This document shows, piece after piece, positions 1,357-19,373 of a stretch of DNA of 20,847 bases. A model generated the notes under the pieces. The model was given only the letters and a program-made list of their open reading frames with translations, searched no databases and was not told the DNA's origin. Location of the stretch: the IMG/VR virus record IMGVR_UViG_3300043438_001309, positions 1 through 20,847 of that record, one strand, 5' to 3'. Made by a program: the position numbers and the translations under genes. How positions within the stretch are numbered: position 1 is the stretch's first letter; each line of letters begins with the position of its first letter. This DNA is from a virus.

Positions 1357-1562
1357 GATATAACCTCTATCGTGTGAAGTTGGATTGTATTGTTTTTTAT
1401 AAAAAAAGATATTGATGAAGATATAACATGTAACGATAATACTTCTGGATACATTGATTTCACTAAAGGGTAAATTTTACTTAAACAAGAAGGACTATTG
1501 ATTAATTGATAAGATAGTTTATCTACAATTAAAACACAAGTTGAATTAACTGGTTCAGTCAA
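1353..1562 (-). CDS. Unknown 69-residue protein, probable TTG start
   Basis: The open frame extends upstream to 1640, but that extension lies wholly inside the end of the preceding gene. The best-placed initiator is a TTG at 1560-1562, which overlaps the preceding stop as TTGACTGA. This gives a 69-residue protein. The product has two Cys (about residues 9 and 26) and alternates short hydrophobic stretches with Ser-rich turns. No family is recognised and no clear membrane helix is present. The Shine-Dalgarno is weak, so expression would depend on coupling to the upstream gene. It ends in an ATGA overlap with the next gene. The start is less certain than the frame. Confidence 0.5.
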   Translation of the reverse strand: MTEPVNSTCVLIVDKLSYQLINSPSCLSKIYPLVKSMYPEVLSLHVISSSISFFIKNNTIQLHTIEVIS

Positions 1563-1929
1563 TATACTTTGAGTCAGCCACGTCTTCAATGGCTGCGGCA
1601 AGGTTTTCATTTTCATCGGCCACGAGTCCACGAGCACCATCCTTCATAATTGTTAGCATTTGCTTCCTACTATTGCCAAGGGTGGTGTGAAAATCCTTTT
1701 GGGCTTCTGGAGTAGCAAACTGAAGTTGACCCATCAAAGCCTCAAGAAAAACTGCTTGTTCTCCAAAACCTACTATCAAAGTAGCAACTTGCTTTTCATA
1801 TGATTCCATTGTCTTTTCAATGGCCATAATTTTTTCATCAAACTTAGCTGCTAACGCTACAACTAAATCGTTAACAAGTTTTCTAAATTCTTCAATTTCT
1901 GTTAATTCAGGAGTTTGTTGTTCTTCCAC
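1555..1929 (-). CDS. Helical coiled-coil protein, 124 residues, GTG start
   Basis: The start is GTG at 1927-1929, chosen because a TGAGG Shine-Dalgarno lies 6-7 nt upstream, partly within the last codons of the preceding gene. The protein is rich in Glu, Ala, Leu and Lys and should be almost entirely alpha-helical, with a likely coiled coil over residues 10-60. It has no Cys and no membrane segment. The C-terminal third is Ala/Glu/Asp-rich. No family is recognised. It follows the 208-residue protein with a 2-nt gap and is tightly linked to the AAA ATPase gene, so an adaptor or small partner role is possible but purely inferred. Confidence 0.7.
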   Translation of the reverse strand: MEEQQTPELTEIEEFRKLVNDLVVALAAKFDEKIMAIEKTMESYEKQVATLIVGFGEQAVFLEALMGQLQFATPEAQKDFHTTLGNSRKQMLTIMKDGARGLVADENENLAAAIEDVADSKYID

Positions 1930-1931
1930 TT

Positions 1932-2558
1932 TTATACCTCATACCAGTCTTTGTTATTAGTAACATGAGACATTATAGCAAGATCTACTATATAAGAAAT
2001 TGAATGTATATCTTGACGAGTTACTTTAATTGAATCAAAAGAAATTATATTCTTCATATCAGGAATAAAAGCACCGGACTCAGCCATACGTGCTTCAAAA
2101 TGACCAGTCTTAAATACAAAGTTGTTAGGGTCAAAGACATCGCCATTTTGCCAATAATGAGATTTAAAGATTCTACTTACTGGCTTGCCATTTATCTTGG
2201 CACCGCCGTAAGATACAAATCCTTCAGCACTAGGGACACCAGTTCTTTCATTAGCTGGATAAGCTTCTAATGCAGTACCATTGGTTATAGCTTTAAGATA
2301 AGCACCAAAGTCAACAATGTCAACAAAGACATTTGTGCTGCTGATTAACTTTCCATCAGGAGATGTTTTACCAATATCAACTCGTAATTTTAGTCCTTGA
2401 AACCAAGGGCGAATTGATAAAAATCCACTTTGAGTTTTAGAACGAAACCATTTCTTGTATAAGTCCTTGTCGTAAGTCTTTTGAACTTCACCAGTAGCTG
2501 CATCTATTGCAGACTCTGGGCTAACTGAATCATCGTAAAAAGAAAATTCTTCTGACAT
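1932..2558 (-). CDS. Unknown 208-residue protein next to the AAA ATPase
   Basis: A full-length frame with ATG at 2558 and an AAGGA Shine-Dalgarno at good spacing. The first 30 residues are acidic and probably disordered. Residues 40-200 look like a mixed alpha/beta or beta-rich single domain, with motifs such as LSIRPWFQGLKLRV and NVFVDIVDFGAYLKAI. No catalytic signature, Cys pair or membrane helix is visible. I do not recognise the family with confidence. The gene starts 15 nt after the AAA ATPase stop and is followed by the coiled-coil gene, so the three form one unit. A nucleic-acid-binding or adaptor role would fit the size, but there is no direct evidence. Confidence 0.75.
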   Translation of the reverse strand: MSEEFSFYDDSVSPESAIDAATGEVQKTYDKDLYKKWFRSKTQSGFLSIRPWFQGLKLRVDIGKTSPDGKLISSTNVFVDIVDFGAYLKAITNGTALEAYPANERTGVPSAEGFVSYGGAKINGKPVSRIFKSHYWQNGDVFDPNNFVFKTGHFEARMAESGAFIPDMKNIISFDSIKVTRQDIHSISYIVDLAIMSHVTNNKDWYEV

Positions 2559-2573
2559 ATTTATCCTTTGTAG

Positions 2574-4205
2574 TTACCACTTAAAAGCGTTTGCTTTTGG
2601 TGTTGATTTTGGTGTTGAGTTGGTAATAGGAGATCCTCCTATTACCATTTTAGCATCTTCAAACTGCTCTGTAGATGCCCAATCCCACTGTTCTATAGCA
2701 GTGGAATATAGATCTTGAATCATTTGACGATTTTTATTCCAAAGAATATTTCTTTGTTTTGGAGCATAAGCAACTATATCACGAGTATCAATTGGGCGAA
2801 GTTCAGCAGAAGAAATATTAAATTTAACTTCTTTAATTAAAGACTTCATTTCTGCACCAGTAAAATATTGAGTAGCATGGGCAATTGCTTCAAGATCAAA
2901 TACATGATCTGTTTTAATTCCCTTAAGATATATATTAAGAATAGACATACGCTCACTAAATGAAGGCAAGCCTACAAACATAATCTTATCAAAGCGATCA
3001 GCTCGCAACATCTCTGGTTTAAGATGTTCAAGTTGGTTAGCAGCACACATCAAGAATACATTGTCAGGAAGTTCTTGGATACCTGTTAAGAACTCACCAT
3101 GAACACGGTCAGTAGTACCACCGTCAACTTGTCCAGAACTTTGACCACCAGACATGTCTCGACCAAACTCATCAATCCAAACACATAAAGGAGCCATAAC
3201 ATTAATCTGTTTAAATACAGTACGCATGTTTTGCTCTGATTGACCAATGTAGGAGTTCATTACTTGGCTAACACCAGTGCGAGCAAGATCCAATCCTAGT
3301 GCATTTGCAGTAGCTTCACAGATAGCAGATTTACCAGTACCTGGAACTCCAACCATAAGAATGCGACGAATAGGACTAATGCCGAACTCAGCAGCTTTTT
3401 CTGGGTTGTGCCAAAGAACAGCGTTGCGAGTAATAAGTTCTTTAATATTATCAAGACCACCTATGTTGTCAAACGTAGTCTTAGGACGAATGATTTCAAG
3501 AATGCCATTCTTTTTAATATCGGCCATCTTAAAATTGTAAATATAATCTGGATCAATGTTGCCAGATTCTAAAACGGAATTCAAACAAACATTAATAAAA
3601 TCAGATTCAGTAAGACCTATTGCTGCTTTAGCAATAGCTGGCAAAGTACCAGGCTTTACAAGAGTGCCACCAGAAGAAGTGTCAATGTGGTTAACAATAG
3701 TTGCTAACTCTTCAAGATTTGGTTCTTCAAAATCAGATTGATAAAACATATTTTTAAAATCTTCTGGACAATCAAACCAAGACATAAAGATTAGCTGAAG
3801 AGGCATTTGTTCAAGATCGTCTGACCAAAAAGCAGAACGATATTGGCTATTGTTAATAGCGATAAGGCCAGAAAACATTTCCATCATTGCTTCAGGTTTA
3901 GTGTACACTGAATAAAGAAAAGTAGAAGATTCTTTATTAATTTCTATCTGTTCAAGAAGATGAGTGTAAGCAACAGTAAAGTCAAAAGTAATTGCTTCAC
4001 GACTGTTTTCTGGATTATTGGGATCAGGCATCTTTACTAAAATGCTTTTCCATTCTTTGTCAACAAGTTTAGAATATCCTTTGATGGGATCAATGGTGTA
4101 AAAAGAACGATTATTAAATTTAACAATAGCTTCTGTAGTTCTTGAGTAATCAGAAGTTTTTAGCCAAATTGAAGGAACGCCCAATTTGATTTGAGAGAAT
4201 AGCAT
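2574..4205 (-). CDS. Ycf46-like AAA ATPase, 543 residues
   Basis: Residues 1-230 form a poorly conserved N-terminal region. Residues 235-460 are a complete AAA module: the DNIGGLDNIKELI entry motif at 246-258, Walker A GVPGTGKS at 286-293, Walker B CVWIDEF at 341-347, a sensor 1 Asn at about 390, a RADRFD arginine-finger motif at 401-406 and a sensor 2-like TGAEMKSLI at 449-457. The segment just before the AAA module and the RFDKIMFVGLPSFSER motif resemble Ycf46-type AAA proteins, which have a degenerate N-terminal ATPase-like domain. There is no HExxH, so it is not FtsH. The C-terminus is a Ser/Thr/Pro/Lys-rich tail. AAA proteins of this kind remodel or unfold protein substrates by ATP hydrolysis; the substrate here is unknown. 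It lies downstream of the ubiquitin-like cassette, separated by two hairpins. The AAGG Shine-Dalgarno supports ATG at 4205. Confidence 0.9.
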   Translation of the reverse strand: MLFSQIKLGVPSIWLKTSDYSRTTEAIVKFNNRSFYTIDPIKGYSKLVDKEWKSILVKMPDPNNPENSREAITFDFTVAYTHLLEQIEINKESSTFLYSVYTKPEAMMEMFSGLIAINNSQYRSAFWSDDLEQMPLQLIFMSWFDCPEDFKNMFYQSDFEEPNLEELATIVNHIDTSSGGTLVKPGTLPAIAKAAIGLTESDFINVCLNSVLESGNIDPDYIYNFKMADIKKNGILEIIRPKTTFDNIGGLDNIKELITRNAVLWHNPEKAAEFGISPIRRILMVGVPGTGKSAICEATANALGLDLARTGVSQVMNSYIGQSEQNMRTVFKQINVMAPLCVWIDEFGRDMSGGQSSGQVDGGTTDRVHGEFLTGIQELPDNVFLMCAANQLEHLKPEMLRADRFDKIMFVGLPSFSERMSILNIYLKGIKTDHVFDLEAIAHATQYFTGAEMKSLIKEVKFNISSAELRPIDTRDIVAYAPKQRNILWNKNRQMIQDLYSTAIEQWDWASTEQFEDAKMVIGGSPITNSTPKSTPKANAFKW

Positions 4206-4240
4206 ATTTGCACCTTAGGTATAAGTAGGGGCCTTGTAGT

Positions 4241-4291
4241 AAAAAATAGAGGGGTGGGGGAGAATGATCGATTTAAAACATTCTCCCCCAC
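4241..4291 (-). terminator. Hairpin plus T-run, probable (partial) terminator
   Basis: A perfect 13-bp inverted repeat (arms 4254-4266 and 4279-4291, 12-nt loop) has a GC-rich base half. On the minus strand it is followed by CCCCTCTA and then six T (4241-4246), which fits an intrinsic terminator after the Ubl gene. The AAA ATPase begins only about 36 nt further on, with no convincing promoter between, so partial read-through is likely. Confidence 0.6.
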
Positions 4292-4298
4292 AACTTGG

Positions 4299-4335
4299 GT
4301 GAGGAAGAGGACTGAAAGGCGTTCCTCTTCCTCAC
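4299..4335 (-). other. Second tandem hairpin after the Ubl gene
   Basis: A perfect 13-bp inverted repeat (arms 4299-4311 and 4323-4335, 11-nt loop) lies 10 nt after the Ubl stop and 7 nt before the terminator-like hairpin. It has no T-run of its own. It may stabilise the 3' end of the upstream mRNA, block ribosome or exonuclease movement, or act with the next hairpin as a double attenuator. Confidence 0.55.
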
Positions 4336-4345
4336 GAACTTAAGT

Positions 4346-4597
4346 TCAGCCCTTTTCGCCAGCGCGACGGTGGAACTCTAAATTGTCAGATGGCTGAACG
4401 ACATAGTCTTCATCGAGCTTGTCTTTACCTTTGTAAGCAATTGCGTCAGTTGGGATTCCCCACAACTTGCTGAATTGCTCACGAACTTCTTTGACGCTTT
4501 TGCCAGCAACAGGTGTTGGCTGGCTGTAAACGCCGAATCTAACGTTAGCAACGCCTGAAGCTGCCGAAGCAGACGACGATGATGTCTGGTTATTCAT
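4346..4597 (-). CDS. Ubiquitin-like protein (PRTRC-C/Prok_Ub-like), 83 residues
   Basis: The first 15 residues are a Ser/Ala/Asn-rich flexible tail. Residues 17-79 fit a small beta-grasp: strands at about 18-25 and 28-31, a helix with VKEVREQFSKLWGIP at 35-49, then strands around AIAYKG, YVVQPSD and LEFHRR. The C-terminus HRRAGEKG resembles the Gly-ended tail of PRTRC system protein C, which as I recall ends in a VGTKG-like motif, and functionally resembles the RLRGG end of ubiquitin. It sits directly after a ThiF/E1 gene and a JAMM gene, the expected context for a conjugated modifier. AGGAG lies 9 nt before ATG 4597. By hand count the gene is about 49% G+C, well above its neighbours. The tail is not a canonical di-glycine, and sequence similarity is weak, so the fold should be checked. 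Confidence 0.75.
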   Translation of the reverse strand: MNNQTSSSSASAASGVANVRFGVYSQPTPVAGKSVKEVREQFSKLWGIPTDAIAYKGKDKLDEDYVVQPSDNLEFHRRAGEKG

Positions 4598-4618
4598 TTA
4601 GGATACTCCTATTAGTAA

Positions 4619-5392
4619 TTATACTGTTTGTGGGGTTTGTTGAACCATACGATTATATGGTTCTGATTTTCCGACTCCGAGATCAAAATATATCTCAGTT
4701 TCTTCGGGGTTTTGATTGTTCACAATGGTTTTGTGAATACGACCAAGAATAAATGCCGCAACAGCCATATTGGTAGCTAGTAACTGAGTACCACCATCTA
4801 CTTCTGCGCGTTCTTGACAGGACATTTCACCTGGGTTTTTATCTGGTGGACTGTCATATTCTGGGTGAAAATGAACAGGATGCTCTGTGATATCTCTACC
4901 GTTGCGACGCTGGTAATGATAAACTGATCCGAAAAGCTCATCATCATTACCGCCAGTAAAGACATCAACATCATCAAGCTTAGAAGCTGCGTCAAACAAA
5001 ATTTTTCTTGCAGCAAAATTATCTACAACTGCAAGAACTATATCTCCGTTAGTGATAAGTTCTGATGCTTTAATCTTAGGTGAATCTTCATCAGTAACAC
5101 CATTAAAGTTATCATCAACAACCCATTTAGGAACTGGGATAAACAAAGTCTTAGTAAAAGATTGAGTAAGCTCTAAAGCTTTAACTGAAGCCTTGTTACC
5201 CATTTGTTTAAAATTTTGCCGTTCAAGATTCTTTTGCTCATAGTTGTCTCCATCTACAATAATTACTGCAGAACCCGGAAACTTCCATTCAAGCATACGA
5301 GCAACGCCTTCAGCAAGCCAGGTGCCAATGCCACCAGCTCCAACAAGGACTACTCGTTTAGGAGAATTATTATTATTATTATTATCAGTCAT
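4619..5392 (-). CDS. ThiF/E1-like adenylating enzyme, 257 residues
   Basis: A single-domain E1/ThiF/MoeB-type protein. Visible motifs: Rossmann GAGGIG at 18-23, the acidic ribose-binding strand IIVDGD at 44-49, the E1 signature NLERQNF at 55-61, VVDNFAAR at 122-129, and a candidate catalytic Cys at 192 in EMSCQERAEVDGGTQ. The spacing C-x2-R and following GGTQ-x-x-A-x-N resembles the ThiF-family member of PRTRC systems. Such enzymes adenylate the C-terminal Gly of a beta-grasp protein and may pass it to the Cys. No second E1 half, ubiquitin-fold domain or rhodanese is present. The start overlaps the JAMM stop as ATGACTGA. Residues 4-9 are a poly-Asn run encoded by six AAT codons (5366-5383), a possible slippage tract. 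The Ubl gene follows 21 nt later. Confidence 0.9.
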   Translation of the reverse strand: MTDNNNNNNSPKRVVLVGAGGIGTWLAEGVARMLEWKFPGSAVIIVDGDNYEQKNLERQNFKQMGNKASVKALELTQSFTKTLFIPVPKWVVDDNFNGVTDEDSPKIKASELITNGDIVLAVVDNFAARKILFDAASKLDDVDVFTGGNDDELFGSVYHYQRRNGRDITEHPVHFHPEYDSPPDKNPGEMSCQERAEVDGGTQLLATNMAVAAFILGRIHKTIVNNQNPEETEIYFDLGVGKSEPYNRMVQQTPQTV

Positions 5393-7109
5393 AAATACCG
5401 CTATCTATATTACTTGCAACGATGGAAAAATCTGCCCAAGAATCACAACCATCTATTGTTTTGGATGGAAGCTGTTGAGTGCTTATGTATTCAACTATTA
5501 GATTACGATAATCATTACATTCAGGAAGGCAATAGAATGCACAAGTATGACACATCGAAGCTGGTTCATATTTTTGTATGCTAACAGTAGCATTTTCAAA
5601 TGTTTCAATGTCTTCCCAATAAACTGTAGGAGAACACTTACAATCTACCCAAGCTTTTTCAGAAGGACATGCACAACATAAGGTCACATCGTCTGCGTAA
5701 AGAAATAAACTGTTTTCTTTCAATAAAGATAATCCAGCTTCCCACTCTATTTCATCAGCATATTCTGCATATTCTGCAAACTCATCAAAACGATCTATTC
5801 TAGAACCATTTGGAGAAGGTCGATTATCTAATTCATCTGGTTTAATCTGAATAAGAAAATTTTCGTTCTTATCGTCTATACACCAAAGATAATAGGCAAC
5901 GCCAATATCTTTATTTCGCATGCGTCGATATTCATCAGTTAGAAATTGTATTTGAGAAAGACCAGCATTTTTAGCAGCTAATGGAATGTCGCAAGCTGGA
6001 CAATAACCATGTGTTTGTATATCTGCTTTAAAAAGATAAAGATCACACGAAGGACAAGTTATAGACTGAATTAATGGATCAACTTCAGCAATTAACTGAC
6101 CATCGTATTCATCCATCTCAAAGGGAATGTTTTGGTTACGAGATGGGACAGAACGCCCACCGTAATAGTTAATCCCAGTACTGCCCGTATGTCCCAACGC
6201 TAGACCCTGACCAGTTTGCTGTGCCAGACCCTGACCAGTTGGCTGTGCCATTGGAGTACCCAAAACCCCCGCTTTGTATGGCGGGGGGGAAACTTTTTTT
6301 ACTTTGCCAGACCACTCCACTACATCGGGATCAGGATCCTTTAGGGGAATGGCATCTTCAAAGACATCATCAATATTCAAGACATAAGCAGTACCGTTCA
6401 TTTGCATCTCTGCGTGATACTCTGTAGCTCCACCATTTTTGGTCTTCTGCCAGCCATAGGTGATGTGGACCCCATCGAAGTCTGCTTGGTCCTCATGGTC
6501 GGTCCCAGAGGCATATGCTGCCATCTCAGGGTGACTATGGACGGAGCCAACAATGATTACGTGATCAGGCTTAAGGTCAACAATAGAATCAGCATCGTAT
6601 TTGCAATGAACTGAAGTATTGGTTTGTTCAGGGACTAAAACGCCCCAACCTTGTTCTCCACCAACGGTAGGGTCAAAAGTTAAGATAACAATTGATTCTG
6701 TCCCGTGTTGAGCATGGACAAGTCTAAAGAATTCATCAAGCTTATTAACAATAACTTTAGGTATTCTAGGCATGTTGTATGTTGCGGCTTCTTCGACTGA
6801 AGCCAAAACATCAGAACCAAAAGAATCATCTGTTTCAGAAATTGAACGACCAACAATGTTGTTAACAACTTTAAGAACACGAGCTTTGTGTTCAGTCTGA
6901 ATCCAAGTTGTATCTTTTTGTTGAGCGTCTTTTCCTTTCATCTGTTTATTGATTTCAAGGTCAGCGATTAAATAATAAATCTGAAAACCTAGAGATTCAA
7001 CTATTTCGCAGATGTCTTCACGATCAGCCATGAAACATGGTGCACCGCTTTGCATCCAGAAATAATCTAGATCTTCTAATGTGATTGGTTTTTCATCTTG
7101 TTTAGACAT
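5385..7109 (-). CDS. JAB/JAMM isopeptidase with C-terminal zinc motifs, 574 residues
   Basis: Residues 1-115 are an uncharacterised helical N-terminal region. Residues about 116-255 are a JAB/MPN domain with the full JAMM motif: H191-x-H193-x7-S201-x2-D204, and a probable catalytic Glu152 in GEQGWGVLVP. Residues 285-312 are a Gly/Gln/Thr linker containing an 8-residue repeat. A zinc ribbon with C352/C355 and C370/C373 follows. Further Cys clusters lie at 478-492 and 520-531 (CHTCAFYCLPEC). JAMM enzymes cleave the bond after a Ubl C-terminal Gly, either maturing it or removing it from targets. Prokaryotic JAB genes next to ThiF and Ubl genes are established for PRTRC and related systems. GGAGAA precedes ATG 7109. 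The JAB-coding part (about 6170-6570) looks G+C-richer than the rest, which suggests a mosaic or fused origin. The roles of the C-terminal zinc motifs are unknown. Confidence 0.9.
   Translation of the reverse strand: MSKQDEKPITLEDLDYFWMQSGAPCFMADREDICEIVESLGFQIYYLIADLEINKQMKGKDAQQKDTTWIQTEHKARVLKVVNNIVGRSISETDDSFGSDVLASVEEAATYNMPRIPKVIVNKLDEFFRLVHAQHGTESIVILTFDPTVGGEQGWGVLVPEQTNTSVHCKYDADSIVDLKPDHVIIVGSVHSHPEMAAYASGTDHEDQADFDGVHITYGWQKTKNGGATEYHAEMQMNGTAYVLNIDDVFEDAIPLKDPDPDVVEWSGKVKKVSPPPYKAGVLGTPMAQPTGQGLAQQTGQGLALGHTGSTGINYYGGRSVPSRNQNIPFEMDEYDGQLIAEVDPLIQSITCPSCDLYLFKADIQTHGYCPACDIPLAAKNAGLSQIQFLTDEYRRMRNKDIGVAYYLWCIDDKNENFLIQIKPDELDNRPSPNGSRIDRFDEFAEYAEYADEIEWEAGLSLLKENSLFLYADDVTLCCACPSEKAWVDCKCSPTVYWEDIETFENATVSIQKYEPASMCHTCAFYCLPECNDYRNLIVEYISTQQLPSKTIDGCDSWADFSIVASNIDSGIYD
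6202..6249 (-). repeat. Two tandem 24-bp direct repeats in the JAMM linker
   Basis: Units 6202-6225 and 6226-6249 differ at a single base. They keep the frame and encode an 8-residue Gly/Gln/Leu/Ala/Thr unit in the linker between the JAB domain and the zinc ribbon. A recent slippage or duplication is likely. Confidence 0.85.
6262..6300. other. GC-rich hairpin inside the JAMM linker
   Basis: A 7-bp all-GC inverted repeat (6266-6272 and 6281-6287, 8-nt loop) lies within coding sequence. On the plus strand it is followed by seven T (6294-6300); on the minus strand by TTTT (6262-6265). It therefore looks like a bidirectional intrinsic terminator embedded in the gene, perhaps a scar of an old gene boundary. 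Confidence 0.45.
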
Positions 7110-7143
7110 AATTTCTCCAATAGTATATTTGTAGTTTTAGGTG

Positions 7144-9060
7144 TTAAAAGGGCTCTGTTGAATATTCAGTACCATCTAAATTAAATAGCTGAAATCCAGT
7201 AGAAAAAGTTGGAGCAATTTTATATTGAATAGCTGCAATAGCTTGACTCAACATTTTCTTAGACTTAAAAGGAATAGAAAGTGGATCTGTATCATCATAT
7301 TCTTTATCAAAACATTTGATACATATTTCGTTAACCTTAAGAAGTACTTCGGTGTTATCAATCTTGTTGTCAAAAGGTTTAGAAACCCAAGGAATTATTG
7401 CTGCTTGAGCGTGAGAAGACCAATGTCCAGCTGAACAGTAGCTATAATTTTTAGCACAAGAAAGGCAAAGATAGGATTGATGGATTAACCAATTCTCATA
7501 CGGAACTTCGTCTTGAGTAAATATAAGATCAACATTATTAGCAGTATCTAAAATCACATTTTTAACTGGAACAGAATAATGGGCAAGTTGAGGTACGTCT
7601 TTAATTAACTCAGTTTCACAACCCATGCAAGAAGTAACATAGCCACCATAGAAAGGATTACCTCCTAAAATGGAAGTTGGTTCTAGCTCTAATTGTTTTG
7701 CAACGGTGTTCGAGAAACATTCAGTACAAAAATGTAAAGTATCTAATTCATCTCCTGGAAGATCAATAGAATAAAATGGATATGATTTAGTACTTCCGCT
7801 AGGAACCCAATGCAAACAATCACAAGAAGGACAATTTTCTGTTTTAGCATGAGTTGAATCAATCCAAATTCCAGATGATTCTATATAAACACAATTATCA
7901 TCATTGGAATGTAAGTATTCTTCTGTATTTTCACAGTAAATCCAATACTCTTGGAAACATCCTTGACACCAGTATGATCCATCTGGAGCAGAAAACTTTT
8001 CTTCATCATCAAGATCATAAAGTTCTTCGCAAGATGGACAAGTAAAATTATTATCTTCTTGATTGAACAAAGAAGGTTGAATAAATGTTTCTGATATTTT
8101 AACTTTATTTGAAGAAGCAGCGTCAAACTGATCCATTTTCTGAGGTTCAGTTTTAGCAGAGTTATGGGCTTGTGCAAATATGTCAAAGACTTGACTAACA
8201 GGAATGCTTATATCAGAACGAGCAAAAGCATTTACCAATTTAGGATGTTGAGTGTCATTGTAATAAGAATTATAATTACCAAGCAAAGCCATTGCAAAAG
8301 TTAAAGGTTGACCATCATCATAATGCTTTTCTTGGTTATCCATATCTTTAACTAAAATAGGTATCCAAAGATCTTCATTTAAAGTCCAGTCAAATCCTTC
8401 TTCTTGAGATTTATCTTGCCAAAGAGTAGGATTCCAAAGATGTTCAGGTTTATTGTGATCACGATAAAAACGAGGACCATCAGTCTCTGACATATTGGCA
8501 TCATTATAGGCTTCAATGCCTGAACAACGTTGTATTAACTTGTTAACTTTATCATTAAAAGAAAGGTTAGTCCAATCCTCGTTGTGGTACAAGCACTGCC
8601 ATCCTACACCGTTACCCCTATAACCTTTACAGTTAGTGTTAGGAAGATTGACGTGATACAATGGTTGATCTGGATGACTAATTGGATATGGGCTATAAAA
8701 CATTCTAGCACCATACAAGTTACCGTCTAAAAGATCTGCTATCCAAATACGATAAGGCTGAGCAAGTAAATAAGCCTTAGCCTTTGGGTCTCCTTCATTA
8801 GCACCCCAGTTAATATAGGCAAGTGCAGGAGCATGTTGAAAAGCTATTTGAGTATGCCGTCCTGCAGAACGGATTGCTAAAGTACCAGTTCCGTTTAAGG
8901 GTAAAAGGCCGGTATCAAATAATGCTTGATTAGAAACGTTACGATAATAAGAAGTTATATCTTTATCTGTAACATGGTCCAAGTTAAAAGACTTAACAGT
9001 AGAACGAACAAGAATGTTTCCGTCTTGTTTTTCAATAGAATACTTAATATTATTAGTCAT
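7144..9060 (-). CDS. Candidate E2-like domain fused to a CxxC zinc array, 638 residues
   Basis: The frame is open from TTG 9075, but ATG at 9058-9060 is preferred because it overlaps the upstream stop as ATGACTAA and has GAAGAAGA upstream. The N-terminal half (about 50-200) has the pattern I associate with PRTRC protein B/Prok-E2_D: a GTGTLAIRSAGRHTQIAF segment, an aromatic/Pro stretch, then PLYHVNLPNTNCKGY and a Cys at about 156 in GWQCLYHNEDW, where the E2-like Cys would sit. Residues 341-583 hold about 18 Cys, mostly in CxxC pairs (341/344, 365/368, 410/413, 445/448, 478/481, 532/535, 580/583), consistent with several treble-clef or RING-like zinc sites. The order E2-like, JAB, ThiF, Ubl matches known ubiquitin-like operons. 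The E2 call is an inference from remote similarity; the zinc array is directly visible. Confidence 0.65.
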   Translation of the reverse strand: MTNNIKYSIEKQDGNILVRSTVKSFNLDHVTDKDITSYYRNVSNQALFDTGLLPLNGTGTLAIRSAGRHTQIAFQHAPALAYINWGANEGDPKAKAYLLAQPYRIWIADLLDGNLYGARMFYSPYPISHPDQPLYHVNLPNTNCKGYRGNGVGWQCLYHNEDWTNLSFNDKVNKLIQRCSGIEAYNDANMSETDGPRFYRDHNKPEHLWNPTLWQDKSQEEGFDWTLNEDLWIPILVKDMDNQEKHYDDGQPLTFAMALLGNYNSYYNDTQHPKLVNAFARSDISIPVSQVFDIFAQAHNSAKTEPQKMDQFDAASSNKVKISETFIQPSLFNQEDNNFTCPSCEELYDLDDEEKFSAPDGSYWCQGCFQEYWIYCENTEEYLHSNDDNCVYIESSGIWIDSTHAKTENCPSCDCLHWVPSGSTKSYPFYSIDLPGDELDTLHFCTECFSNTVAKQLELEPTSILGGNPFYGGYVTSCMGCETELIKDVPQLAHYSVPVKNVILDTANNVDLIFTQDEVPYENWLIHQSYLCLSCAKNYSYCSAGHWSSHAQAAIIPWVSKPFDNKIDNTEVLLKVNEICIKCFDKEYDDTDPLSIPFKSKKMLSQAIAAIQYKIAPTFSTGFQLFNLDGTEYSTEPF

Positions 9061-9454
9061 AATTATCTTCTTCAAAAATAGATGTAAGATCTTTTTCTAT
9101 CTCATCACTGAAATCACCAAAAGTCCAAGCGAACCATTCTGGATCTTTTTGTGCGGTATCAATGATAGATAAGCGAGATTTCAAATTGTCTTGAACTTCA
9201 ATAAGATCAGCAATTCTATCAATTCCTTTAGCAAGTTTCTTCAGCTCTTTTTTATTATGAGTAGATTGGAGTACCAGCCTAATCATAGGCATGCCGTCAA
9301 TAGTTACTTTATTGATAATATTTTCAATTCGATCTGTGATAGAATCGAACTGATCTTGAAGTTCTTTCTTAACAGAAGTTGCAACGTTGAGGGAAAAAGT
9401 AAACTTACTTAAAGGCTTGCTTTCTTCAGGTAGCTTTTCTGGATATTTAGACAT
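9053..9454 (-). CDS. Helical 133-residue protein upstream of the Ubl cassette
   Basis: No family recognised. The sequence is Lys/Glu/Asp/Ile-rich and should be largely alpha-helical, with coiled-coil potential over residues 25-100 and an acidic C-terminus. It has no Cys and no membrane segment. ATG 9452-9454 overlaps the upstream stop as TAATG with an AGGGG Shine-Dalgarno just before it. Its own stop overlaps the start of the E2-like/zinc gene. This coupling makes it a possible first member of the ubiquitin-like operon, but nothing in the sequence shows a function. Confidence 0.7.
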   Translation of the reverse strand: MSKYPEKLPEESKPLSKFTFSLNVATSVKKELQDQFDSITDRIENIINKVTIDGMPMIRLVLQSTHNKKELKKLAKGIDRIADLIEVQDNLKSRLSIIDTAQKDPEWFAWTFGDFSDEIEKDLTSIFEEDNYD

Positions 9455-12040: not shown

Positions 12041-12523
12041 TTAGCAAATCCTAAATCCACCACAGTTTTGTAAAAACTGTTGGAACTCTACAACAAGATC
12101 ATAGTCCATATGGTAATGAGTTGCAAAGCTAGATACTTTTAAAGTACCTTCGCAAGCATTACATTGTTTAGTAACAGATTGTTCTTGGCCATTTGCGTCA
12201 GCTTCTTTCCAAACACGAACGCCTAAACCATCACAATACTTACAGTCTTCTAATGGAAGAGAATCCATGTGAGCTTTGTATTGCTCAATGTAAGCTTTTA
12301 TAGTTCCATCTTCTAAATCTTTAGCTAAAAGTTTAGCAAGTGTTATAGAATACTTAGCATTTAAACCTGATCCAGAATTATCGTGAGGACTTTCACATTT
12401 AGAACAAATACTAGGATGAAGCTTTTCAAGGCAATCCCATAGAGGATGCCAATACCATACATTAGCACGGAAGTATTCGCCTTGTTCGTTTTTTGGCTTA
12501 ATGCCAAAAACATCCATTCCCAT
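12041..12523 (-). CDS. Phage-type conserved protein with DnaJ-like zinc motifs, 160 residues
   Basis: The N-terminus MGMDVFGIKPKNEQGEYFR followed by N-x-W-x-W-x-PLW is a pattern I recognise from conserved hypothetical proteins of phages and environmental bacteria; its function is not established. Cys pairs lie at 40/43, 94/97, 121/124 and a last pair at 154/160. The segments CKYCDGLG (94-101) and CNACEG (121-126) resemble half of a DnaJ-type C-x2-C-x-G-x-G zinc module, which suggests zinc binding and perhaps peptide binding. No membrane segment. ATG 12523 is preceded by AAGGA. The next gene starts 1 nt after its stop. Confidence 0.8.
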   Translation of the reverse strand: MGMDVFGIKPKNEQGEYFRANVWYWHPLWDCLEKLHPSICSKCESPHDNSGSGLNAKYSITLAKLLAKDLEDGTIKAYIEQYKAHMDSLPLEDCKYCDGLGVRVWKEADANGQEQSVTKQCNACEGTLKVSSFATHYHMDYDLVVEFQQFLQNCGGFRIC

Positions 12524-17371: not shown

Positions 17372-17754
17372 AACGAATTAAATCTATTTATAATTTCATT
17401 TATATAAGTTATGGGTAGTGAATTAAATCTTTCTTTGTTTTGAGTAGTATAATCATTATTATAACCCAATAACAAAGCATTGCCATATATAACTTCGCTA
17501 TAAGAATAGCGATAGCTATAGGTTCTATAGATATTTGTTGCTAACATATTAACTTCTTTTAAAGAAGGATGTTCTAAATCGTAACAAATACACATATCGT
17601 TTTTAAGGATAAGAACAGTTAAAGTATCGAGTGATAAAGAAGTATAATCTATCAAAGCTTCTAAAGAACCAGTTATTATTTGAGGATAAGAATCCCAGCA
17701 AAGTTGAACTGATTTTATTTCATTAATATTAATATCTTCTTTAAGGTAACTCAT
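17368..17754 (-). CDS. Unknown 128-residue protein
   Basis: No family recognised. The sequence alternates strands and helices (EIKSVQLCWDSYP, ITGSLEALIDYTSLS, LTVLILKNDMCICYDLEHP, then a Tyr-rich helix), with three Cys in the first half. No signal peptide or membrane helix. ATG overlaps the subtilase stop as ATGA and its own stop overlaps the Cys4 gene. A partner of the secreted protease is possible by position only. Confidence 0.65.
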   Translation of the reverse strand: MSYLKEDININEIKSVQLCWDSYPQIITGSLEALIDYTSLSLDTLTVLILKNDMCICYDLEHPSLKEVNMLATNIYRTYSYRYSYSEVIYGNALLLGYNNDYTTQNKERFNSLPITYINEIINRFNSL

Positions 17755-19373
17755 TTAGAAATAGATTCCCACCATGTTTTAGGGCCAAGAAAAGAATCTT
17801 TGGCTCCTTGTAAATAGCAAGAAGAAATTCCTTTAGCGGAAGCAAAAGTGCCATCAGAATTCTTTAATCTATAACTATTAAATCTAGCTGACATATTAAT
17901 AGGAATAACATACTGTTGTCCTGTATTGCAGGTTAACAAATAATGAGAAAGTAAAGTTTTGCCATAAGAAACATCTATATATCTAACCATAAAGATATCA
18001 TAAGTATATGATCTCCATATAGTAGAATAAGAATCTAACGAGGTTAATCTTGGCTTTCCAATATTGTAAGTTTGACCAGGGATTGTAGTAGTAACTACAG
18101 TAGAAGTAGTAGATGTAGAAACGGGAACAGTTGTACTACTGGTAGTAGAAGGAGGAGGAACTAAAGTTGTAGTAGGAGACACTAAGGTGGTAGTAGTAGT
18201 TGAAGCAACAGTAGATGTTGTAGTGGTAATAATTGGAACAGAAACCGCTTGATCTATCAAGGATTTCATATTGATTCTTTTAGTGATAATACCACTGTAT
18301 CTGTCTGTAGCAGGAGAAGAATATTTTTGTAAATCAGAAACAGCTTTATCTACAGTTTGCACACCAAACTTAGACCTATAGATAGCAAAAGCTCCTGTAA
18401 CGAATGGAGCAGACATAGATGTGCCTGAAGCAGATCCATAGCTACCCATTAATTTAGAAGAATTAATTTGAAGACCTGGTGCTGATAAGGTAGTGTACTG
18501 GGATACATTAGAAAAGTCGGTTACTGCATCAGTGACGGTTGAAGTCGCAGCTACACTAACAGCATCTGATATACAAGCAGGAGAACTCATACCTACTGCA
18601 TAGGAGTTACCTGAAGATACTACGGTCGCAATATTTTTTAACTTTAAATTGCGAACAGCAGTAGTCATATCGGGAATGTAATCGTCACATGTTCCTTTGA
18701 ATATGGTATTGCTACCAAGAGACATGTTTACTGATGTTATATTATACTCAGAGGCAATCGAATTAATCCAATTGAGAGCCTTGATAATGTCCCCGTCATA
18801 GGCTCCACCATACGGGTCAAACACATTGATGGCAATGATTTTTGCGTCTGGAGCAATGCCGTGGAATGATGCGTTGCTACCAGCAATAATACCCGCAACA
18901 TGGGTCCCGTGATAGTGAACGGGGGCCGCAGCTCCAGCACCAATCATCTGAGATTGTCCATTGGGACATCTGCTAGAAAAACATGCTTCAAGTGCTACTT
19001 TACCTGCTAGAAAAGGATGAGATTTTTCTACCCCTGTGTCAATGATAGCCACATAAGATCCTGCACCAGTAAATCCAAGATCGTAAGAATAGTTTGCACC
19101 GATTTTAGGAATAGCTGTGCTAAGACTGAGCTTAAACTTAACTGGACCAGTAGCAGTAGGAACAGAAGAAGTCTTAGATTTTACTGTTTTATAAGTGTAA
19201 GTTTTTAGTTTTTTCTTTTTAACATTAAGTTTAGATTTAGGTTTTACTGTTGAAGAATTATCTTTATTATTAGAAGCACTGGCAGTAAGTGAGTTACTAA
19301 AAATAAAAGTTATTAACATTATAAAAACTAATAAGAGTTTAGAATATTTTTTATACATAAAATGGGTTACCAT
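17751..19373 (-). CDS. Secreted S8 subtilisin-like protease, 540 residues
   Basis: Residues 1-34 are a signal peptide: a basic start, a hydrophobic core LLLVFIMLITFIF, and a TASAS-type cleavage site. Residues 35-80 are a Lys/Thr-rich segment, shorter than a normal inhibitor prodomain. The catalytic domain spans about 90-375 with Asp112 (IDTGV), His155 (HGTHVAG), the oxyanion Asn256 (SSGN) and Ser319 (GTSMSAP). Residues 381-432 are a Thr/Ser/Val/Pro linker, probably extended and possibly glycosylated. Residues 433-540 are a C-terminal beta-rich domain of unknown type with three Cys. A secreted serine protease with cell-wall-spanning linker fits action outside the host cell. The Thr-rich linker resembles Acidimicrobiia secreted proteins. 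ATG overlaps the helicase stop by 7 nt. It may be of host origin. Confidence 0.93.
   Translation of the reverse strand: MVTHFMYKKYSKLLLVFIMLITFIFSNSLTASASNNKDNSSTVKPKSKLNVKKKKLKTYTYKTVKSKTSSVPTATGPVKFKLSLSTAIPKIGANYSYDLGFTGAGSYVAIIDTGVEKSHPFLAGKVALEACFSSRCPNGQSQMIGAGAAAPVHYHGTHVAGIIAGSNASFHGIAPDAKIIAINVFDPYGGAYDGDIIKALNWINSIASEYNITSVNMSLGSNTIFKGTCDDYIPDMTTAVRNLKLKNIATVVSSGNSYAVGMSSPACISDAVSVAATSTVTDAVTDFSNVSQYTTLSAPGLQINSSKLMGSYGSASGTSMSAPFVTGAFAIYRSKFGVQTVDKAVSDLQKYSSPATDRYSGIITKRINMKSLIDQAVSVPIITTTTSTVASTTTTTLVSPTTTLVPPPSTTSSTTVPVSTSTTSTVVTTTIPGQTYNIGKPRLTSLDSYSTIWRSYTYDIFMVRYIDVSYGKTLLSHYLLTCNTGQQYVIPINMSARFNSYRLKNSDGTFASAKGISSCYLQGAKDSFLGPKTWWESISK

Follow-up and report, generated by a model that had tools for sequence, protein, structure and literature searches.

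A conserved phage gene cassette with a probable PRTRC-like ubiquitin-like conjugation pathway

Results

The viral record IMGVR_UViG_3300043438_001309, analysed over its whole stretch of 20,847 bases (hereafter the window), carries a minus-strand gene cassette that probably encodes a ubiquitin-like conjugation pathway. In the direction of transcription, its four central genes specify a large protein (7144..9060) in which an E2 (UBC)-like domain, at residues ~25-245, is fused to an array of zinc-binding CxxC pairs at the C-terminus, a JAMM/MPN metalloprotease with an N-terminal extension and a C-terminal cysteine-rich (zinc) region (5385..7109), a single-domain E1/ThiF-like adenylating enzyme with a candidate thioester cysteine, Cys192 (4619..5392), and an 83-aa ubiquitin-like modifier (Ubl) ending in GEKG (4346..4597). 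These four open reading frames, proposed in an earlier sequence-only reading, were all located at the positions given there and run head to tail, co-directional and tightly packed. Immediately 5' lies g133 (9053..9454, same strand), which encodes a small protein, is the first cassette gene in all clades and gave no significant family match in scans of the window proteins. The g133 and large-protein genes overlap by eight bases, as do the E1 and JAMM genes. The large protein starts at an ATG at 9060, and a second in-frame candidate is a TTG at 9075; its residues are numbered here from the TTG (643-aa form), where Cys161 corresponds to Cys156 counted from the ATG.

Searches of IMG/VR returned more than 40 related loci, the longest contig measuring 268 kb. 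The order g133, E2-zinc, JAMM, E1, Ubl is kept in all 46 loci compared, as far as each contig reaches, and the full co-directional eight-gene order, continuing with an AAA ATPase gene, g208 and g124, is complete in 40. In the remaining six the genes present before the contig end hold the same order, and the arrangement is therefore not due to chance. At the 95% level the 46 loci comprise 28 distinct E1s. Even in phages whose proteins are just ~40-60% identical, the cassette has the same neighbouring genes, a finding that refutes the earlier description of this part of the genome as an accessory region. The accessory-insertion reading was dropped given the wide conservation across the 46 loci; the module is a conserved part of these phages. 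One pattern-based scan, covering 84,980 species genomes of bacteria and archaea, found a single relative; it lies in a metagenome-assembled genome on a contig of 10.4 kb, plausibly from a phage, so the module is virus-restricted as far as it was searched.

Five loci (L083, L085, L087, L089 and L090) form a divergent sister clade in which the JAMM zinc region is encoded as a separate gene. Even there g133 homologues are found immediately 5' of the E2-like gene (E 1e-27 to 1e-38), and those members whose contig reaches the AAA gene (L083, L085 and L089) have extra genes between Ubl and AAA. Conserved inserts, one of ~350-390 aa and one of ~175 aa, both lacking family matches, lie 3' of the Ubl in L083, L085, L087 and L089. 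Elsewhere, two divergent cassette copies (L002 and L009) lie near both ends of one contig (UViG 3300042868_009074, 267,766 bases); their E1s share 89% and 76% identity with the window E1, and the contig may join two phages in a chimera, or the duplication may be genuine.

The E1 matches Pfam ThiF (4.4e-13), and its best NCBIfam model is PRTRC_ThiF of the ParB-Related, ThiF-Related Cassette (PRTRC; models TIGR03734-03742), with TIGR03736 at 1.7e-8 and 34.1 bits, far below the cut-off of 144.75. Profile comparison with hhalign (9.7e-14) identifies it as a homologue of PRTRC ThiF and places Cys192 on the conserved cysteine of the PSCS motif. Across homologues Cys192 is invariant and the motifs GAGGIG and N-x-ERQ nearly so, in agreement with the motifs (GAGGIG, NLERQN) and the candidate cysteine picked out from the window sequence. 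The E1 also matches the adenyl_thiF model (4.8e-8), as would suit a sulfur-carrier pathway in which the 83-aa protein is of ThiS/MoaD type, the ThiF-like enzyme makes its thiocarboxylate and the JAMM protein trims it, as in siderophore and cysteine pathways; ThiF, beta-grasp and JAMM proteins also occur together in sulfur pathways (Iyer et al. 2006, PMC1779556). Such a role is judged distinctly unlikely, however: PRTRC_ThiF is the best family match of the E1, genes for a rhodanese, a cysteine synthase or biosynthesis are absent from the operon, and an E2-like protein with an invariant cysteine is encoded there.

Three E1 clades were resolved by phylogeny, one of PRTRC E1s (support 100/99), a second of E1s from Bacillota, Rubrobacter, Bacillus phage KLEB27-3 and gut phages (96/91), and a third consisting of the window lineage (100/100) on a very long stem. 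In the midpoint-rooted tree the Bacillota/Rubrobacter/KLEB27-3 group is nearest to the window E1s with weak support (91/80), and their exact placement is uncertain because of the very long branch.

The JAMM protein scores 24.9 bits against Pfam Prok-JAB (1.9e-5), marginally under the cut-off of 25. A PRTRC_A match was found in 14 of 14 JAMM family members; the window protein reaches 16.7 bits with the NCBIfam model (cut-off 101.8), and an hhalign value of 5.9e-6 identifies it as homologous to PRTRC_A at the profile level. H191, H193, S201 and D204, already recognised as parts of the JAMM motif, are invariant in 14 homologues. The glutamate had been misassigned to E152, which is unconserved; the invariant residue is E138, 53 residues before H191. 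The zinc arrays, earlier singled out as additional features, are indeed present on the window proteins, but the JAMM array is a gene of its own in the sister clade.

Phage-borne cassettes of this wider kind are not unique to the window lineage. Canonical PRTRC cassettes were found in at least 171 IMG/VR stretches, phage and prophage, on contigs mostly of ~40 kb. Burkholderia phage BgVeeders33 (L102, 4327-8250) encodes a complete PRTRC set, C-F-B-A-ThiF, annotated as hypothetical proteins, with its Ubl inside a longer precursor in which RRAVGTKG is followed by a tail. In the 217-kb Bacillus jumbo phage vB_BauM_KLEB27-3 (L184, 3846-6894) an E2_D/PRTRC_A/ThiF set resembles those of Bacillota plasmids. 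No description of these phage cassettes was found in the literature searched, coverage of which was incomplete.

Eighty phage or prophage PRTRC loci (L104-L183) were used to compare the Ubl C-terminus with the presence of a JAB gene. Where a JAB gene is present, 55 of 59 loci encode a tail after GxKG; where it is missing, 0 of 16 do (Fisher 6e-13), and the figures after dereplication are 6/7 versus 0/9 (p = 9e-4). Some JAB absences may be missed detections, which would weaken this contrast rather than create it. The association supports trimming by JAB and marks the glycine of KG as the working end. It thus points to JAB as the Ubl maturation protease in phage PRTRC cassettes, and predicts cleavage after GxKG.

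The 83-residue protein, for which the lack of a beta-grasp fold had been named as a refuting outcome, was modelled by AlphaFold2 (AF2) with that fold (beta-beta-alpha-beta order, mean pLDDT 82), and the top PDB matches of the model were ubiquitin, SUMO and NEDD8 (E ~3e-4, TM 0.6-0.7). The C-terminus EFHR[RK]xGEKG, with the GEKG end noted at the outset, is shared by all 22 Ubl sequences compared. The terminal G-x-K-G pattern is common to the window Ubl and PRTRC protein C, and in profile comparison the Ubl scored against PRTRC_C above all 60 column shuffles, although neither a match to the NCBIfam PRTRC_C model nor a significant Pfam match was obtained. Directly after GEKG a two-residue tail is encoded in five loci, SL in L041, L043 and L044, NI in L049 and SK in L090, and the glycine of GEKG is for this reason likely to be the mature end.

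The motif LYHVNLPN-x-NC...GNGVGW-x-CLY of the E2-like protein is invariant or near-invariant in 22 homologues, with Cys149 and Cys161 both invariant, and by eye is similar to the E2-enzyme signature HPN...G-x-[IV]-C-L. Compared by hhalign with a Prok-E2_D set from Bacillota, Rubrobacter and KLEB27-3, which itself matches PRTRC_B at 4e-27, it scored 28.2 against a mean of 14.1 for 80 shuffles (sd 2.4, max 23.3; z ~6), a significance to be read in the light of the set having been picked after earlier E2 comparisons had failed. Collinear through 141 columns, this alignment sets Cys161 on a conserved cysteine. Alignments to PRTRC_B and to UBE2D2, both insignificant, likewise each set Cys161 on a conserved cysteine; the UBE2D2 comparison was rejected on its score. 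Foldseek of the E2-zinc model against BFVD matched one clear phage homologue, a 241-aa viral protein, A0A7R7G2H5 (E 1.1e-9, 13% identity), and a further phage protein. The length of A0A7R7G2H5 is compatible with a stand-alone Prok-E2_D. The zinc arrays could not be placed with confidence in RING, LIM or any other family.

Downstream of the Ubl, on the same strand, lies a gene for an AAA+ ATPase resembling Cdc48/PAN, in which a single AAA domain follows an N-terminal domain particular to the protein (2574..4205; Pfam AAA 9.4e-24); its nearest PDB relatives are VCP-like ATPases/Cdc48, with PAN also close. The gene is found 3' of the Ubl in every locus long enough to show it. The intervening gap (4206..4345) contains two perfect hairpins in tandem in the window, terminator-like or attenuator-like, with a minimum free energy of -52.0 kcal/mol (z -7.9). 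In each of the 17 loci that were folded, this gap has a GC-rich hairpin (z -3.4 to -8.8 relative to mononucleotide shuffling); its typical form is GTGGGGGAG...CTCCCCCAC, and a T run usually comes after it. The ATPase is probably associated with the cassette but perhaps forms a separate or attenuated transcription unit, since the hairpin is conserved. Relatives of the ATPase also occur in phages that lack the cassette.

Next come g208 (1932..2558) and g124 (1555..1929), both encoding conserved proteins on the same strand, each in 44 of the 46 loci; the two loci without g208 end short of its position. Scans of the window proteins gave no family match for either. Profile comparison found g208 unrelated to the gene 3' of AAA in other phages, which was accordingly rejected as its relative. 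The window also contains a WhiB gene (Pfam Whib 2e-14), from which the host is probably actinobacterial, and which favours the actinophage label originally attached to this DNA. Upstream of the cassette, a 160-aa protein (12041-12523) with a weak match to the DnaJ CXXCXGXG zinc domain (1.2e-4, below cut-off) is kept in many related phages. A putatively secreted subtilase with a Thr/Ser-rich linker (17751-19373; Peptidase_S8, 1.4e-34) is odd cargo for a phage.

Discussion

Co-encoded in the window are a Ubl, an E1 with a candidate cysteine, an E2-like protein with a candidate cysteine and a JAMM enzyme with its E/H/H/S/D residues, the set by which a Ubl pathway is recognised. Iyer et al. 2006 (PMC1779556) described such a set in their row 6d (Ubl, JAB, E1, E2 and a helical protein) and predicted conjugation for this kind of operon in section 14. 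The data make it probable that the cassette encodes a PRTRC-like Ubl/E1/E2_D/JAMM conjugation pathway of this kind. The E2-JAB-E1-Ubl logic first seen in the sequence is borne out by gene order, Ubl fold and E1 and JAMM homology, with weaker backing from the E2. Gene order, both homologies, the modelled fold and the invariance of the catalytic residues are computational results.

Several points weigh against this interpretation. The last residues of the Ubl are KG, with one glycine, and not GG. The E2-like protein has no Pfam match and no hidden Markov model match to PRTRC_B or Prok-E2_D; against proteobacterial PRTRC_B alone hhalign gave 0.14, within the column-shuffle range, a larger PRTRC_B set gave no significance either, and Foldseek of the full-length E2-zinc AF2 model against PDB returned nothing significant. 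The E2-like N-terminus originally ascribed to the large protein is upheld by profile and motif less strongly than the other parts, making it the weakest element of the set. Furthermore, no biochemical activity is reported for any PRTRC system in the literature searched, again with incomplete coverage.

The resemblance to PRTRC extends to the E2-JAB-ThiF order, a small stand-alone Ubl with a GxKG end, homologous E1 and JAMM proteins, an E1 cysteine on that of PSCS and a conserved E2 cysteine. In contrast to PRTRC, the window Ubl follows the E1, the E2 and JAMM proteins have zinc extensions, g133 is extra, an AAA gene lies downstream, and the window E1s occupy a clade of their own on a long stem. 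PRTRC models were below cut-off or unmatched, ParB was not found among the window genes scanned with Pfam and NCBIfam, and in profile comparison PRTRC E and F showed no similarity to g133, g124 or g208, as expected from the initial description of a PRTRC-like set lacking ParB or other PRTRC genes. The cassette is therefore filed as a distinct PRTRC-like lineage and not as a member, because the ThiF and PRTRC_A cut-offs were not reached and ParB, E and F were not found. Within the Iyer row-6d kind it represents a third lineage, virus-restricted as far as searched, with new zinc fusions, and its operon is probably functional. The original likeness to PRTRC stands, with the further point that canonical PRTRC is itself common in phages; there too Ubl, E2, JAB and E1 are phage-borne, but the families are the standard PRTRC ones and the Ubl often has a tail of ~48-100 residues after GTKG.

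A PRTRC-like role in replication or maintenance, with the tag acting on proteins of DNA metabolism (clamp, single-stranded DNA-binding protein (SSB), partition), is a tentative reading of somewhat low probability. Plasmid relatives adjoin ParB or DnaN, an SSB-like gene and a uracil-DNA glycosylase gene lie downstream in one related locus (L036), and a ParB-like DUF6551 gene lies 3' of the Ubl in another (L090), whereas the window scans found no ParB. This proposal concerns the target and is compatible with a conjugation pathway.

Closer in some respects are the cassettes of Bacillota and Rubrobacter plasmids and of phage KLEB27-3 (gp196-194), which share the E2_D-JAB-ThiF order and provide the closest E2 profile match and the nearest, weakly supported, E1 group. 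Unlike the window cassette they showed no zinc extensions, no adjoining Ubl of the window type was identified in them, and they lack g133 and the AAA module. BilABCD (PMC11354881) likewise combines Ubl, E1, E2 and JAMM in one operon, but there BilA contains a pair of Ubl domains, BilD an inactive and an active adenylation domain and BilB a CEHH motif (C, E+6, H+8, H+13), whereas the window set has a single Ubl and a single-domain E1, and the CEHH spacing is absent among the invariant residues after C161. In CBASS type II (Cap2/Cap3), E1 and E2 are fused and encoded beside a CD-NTase; in the window they are separate genes, and no CD-NTase was found among the window proteins scanned with PADLOC and Pfam. 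Host Ubl pathways protect against phages (PMC10097602), JAMM enzymes deconjugate, and PADLOC E1-E2 models match the window E1 weakly, observations that would fit a counter-defence set competing for or removing host Ubl conjugates (Bil, CBASS type II) and having no substrate programme of its own. This is very improbable, as a Ubl, E1 and E2 of its own exceed the needs of a decoy and the E1 belongs to a separate, long-stemmed clade.

Knowledge of these protein families suggests how the conjugation pathway may operate; E2 activity, conjugation itself, an E3 role for the zinc array, the AAA link and the targets are inferred. In lineages with the two-residue tail, the JAMM enzyme would trim the Ubl to its GEKG end. 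The E1 would then adenylate the terminal glycine and may hold the Ubl as a thioester on Cys192, from which it would be transferred to Cys161 of the E2 domain. The zinc array fused to the E2 would bind the substrate as a built-in E3, the Ubl would be joined to a target amine, and the JAMM-zinc protein would later remove the tag. The Cdc48-like ATPase may act on tagged proteins, although the conserved hairpin sets it apart from the cassette. Its AAA domain is closest to those of Cdc48/VCP and PAN, yet Cdc48/p97, PAN and Mpa differ from the window protein, which combines just one AAA domain with an N-terminus particular to it and has a putative Ubl link. A functional link between AAA and Ubl is possible. 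A complete viral ubiquitin-unfoldase axis, in which the phage's own Ubl and zinc-E3 E2 would tag host or phage proteins, the downstream ATPase would remodel them or deliver them for degradation and the JAMM-zinc protein would recycle the tag, is thought unlikely.

This kind of operon was predicted in 2006 to perform protein conjugation in bacteria, and no experimental test of that prediction was found in the literature searched. The compact and strongly conserved version in large phages offers a well-delimited group of genes for expression and testing. The whole module is kept in at least 28 phage lineages, which implies that tagging would matter for infection. If so, Ubl modification would join the ways in which phages control their hosts or their own proteins.

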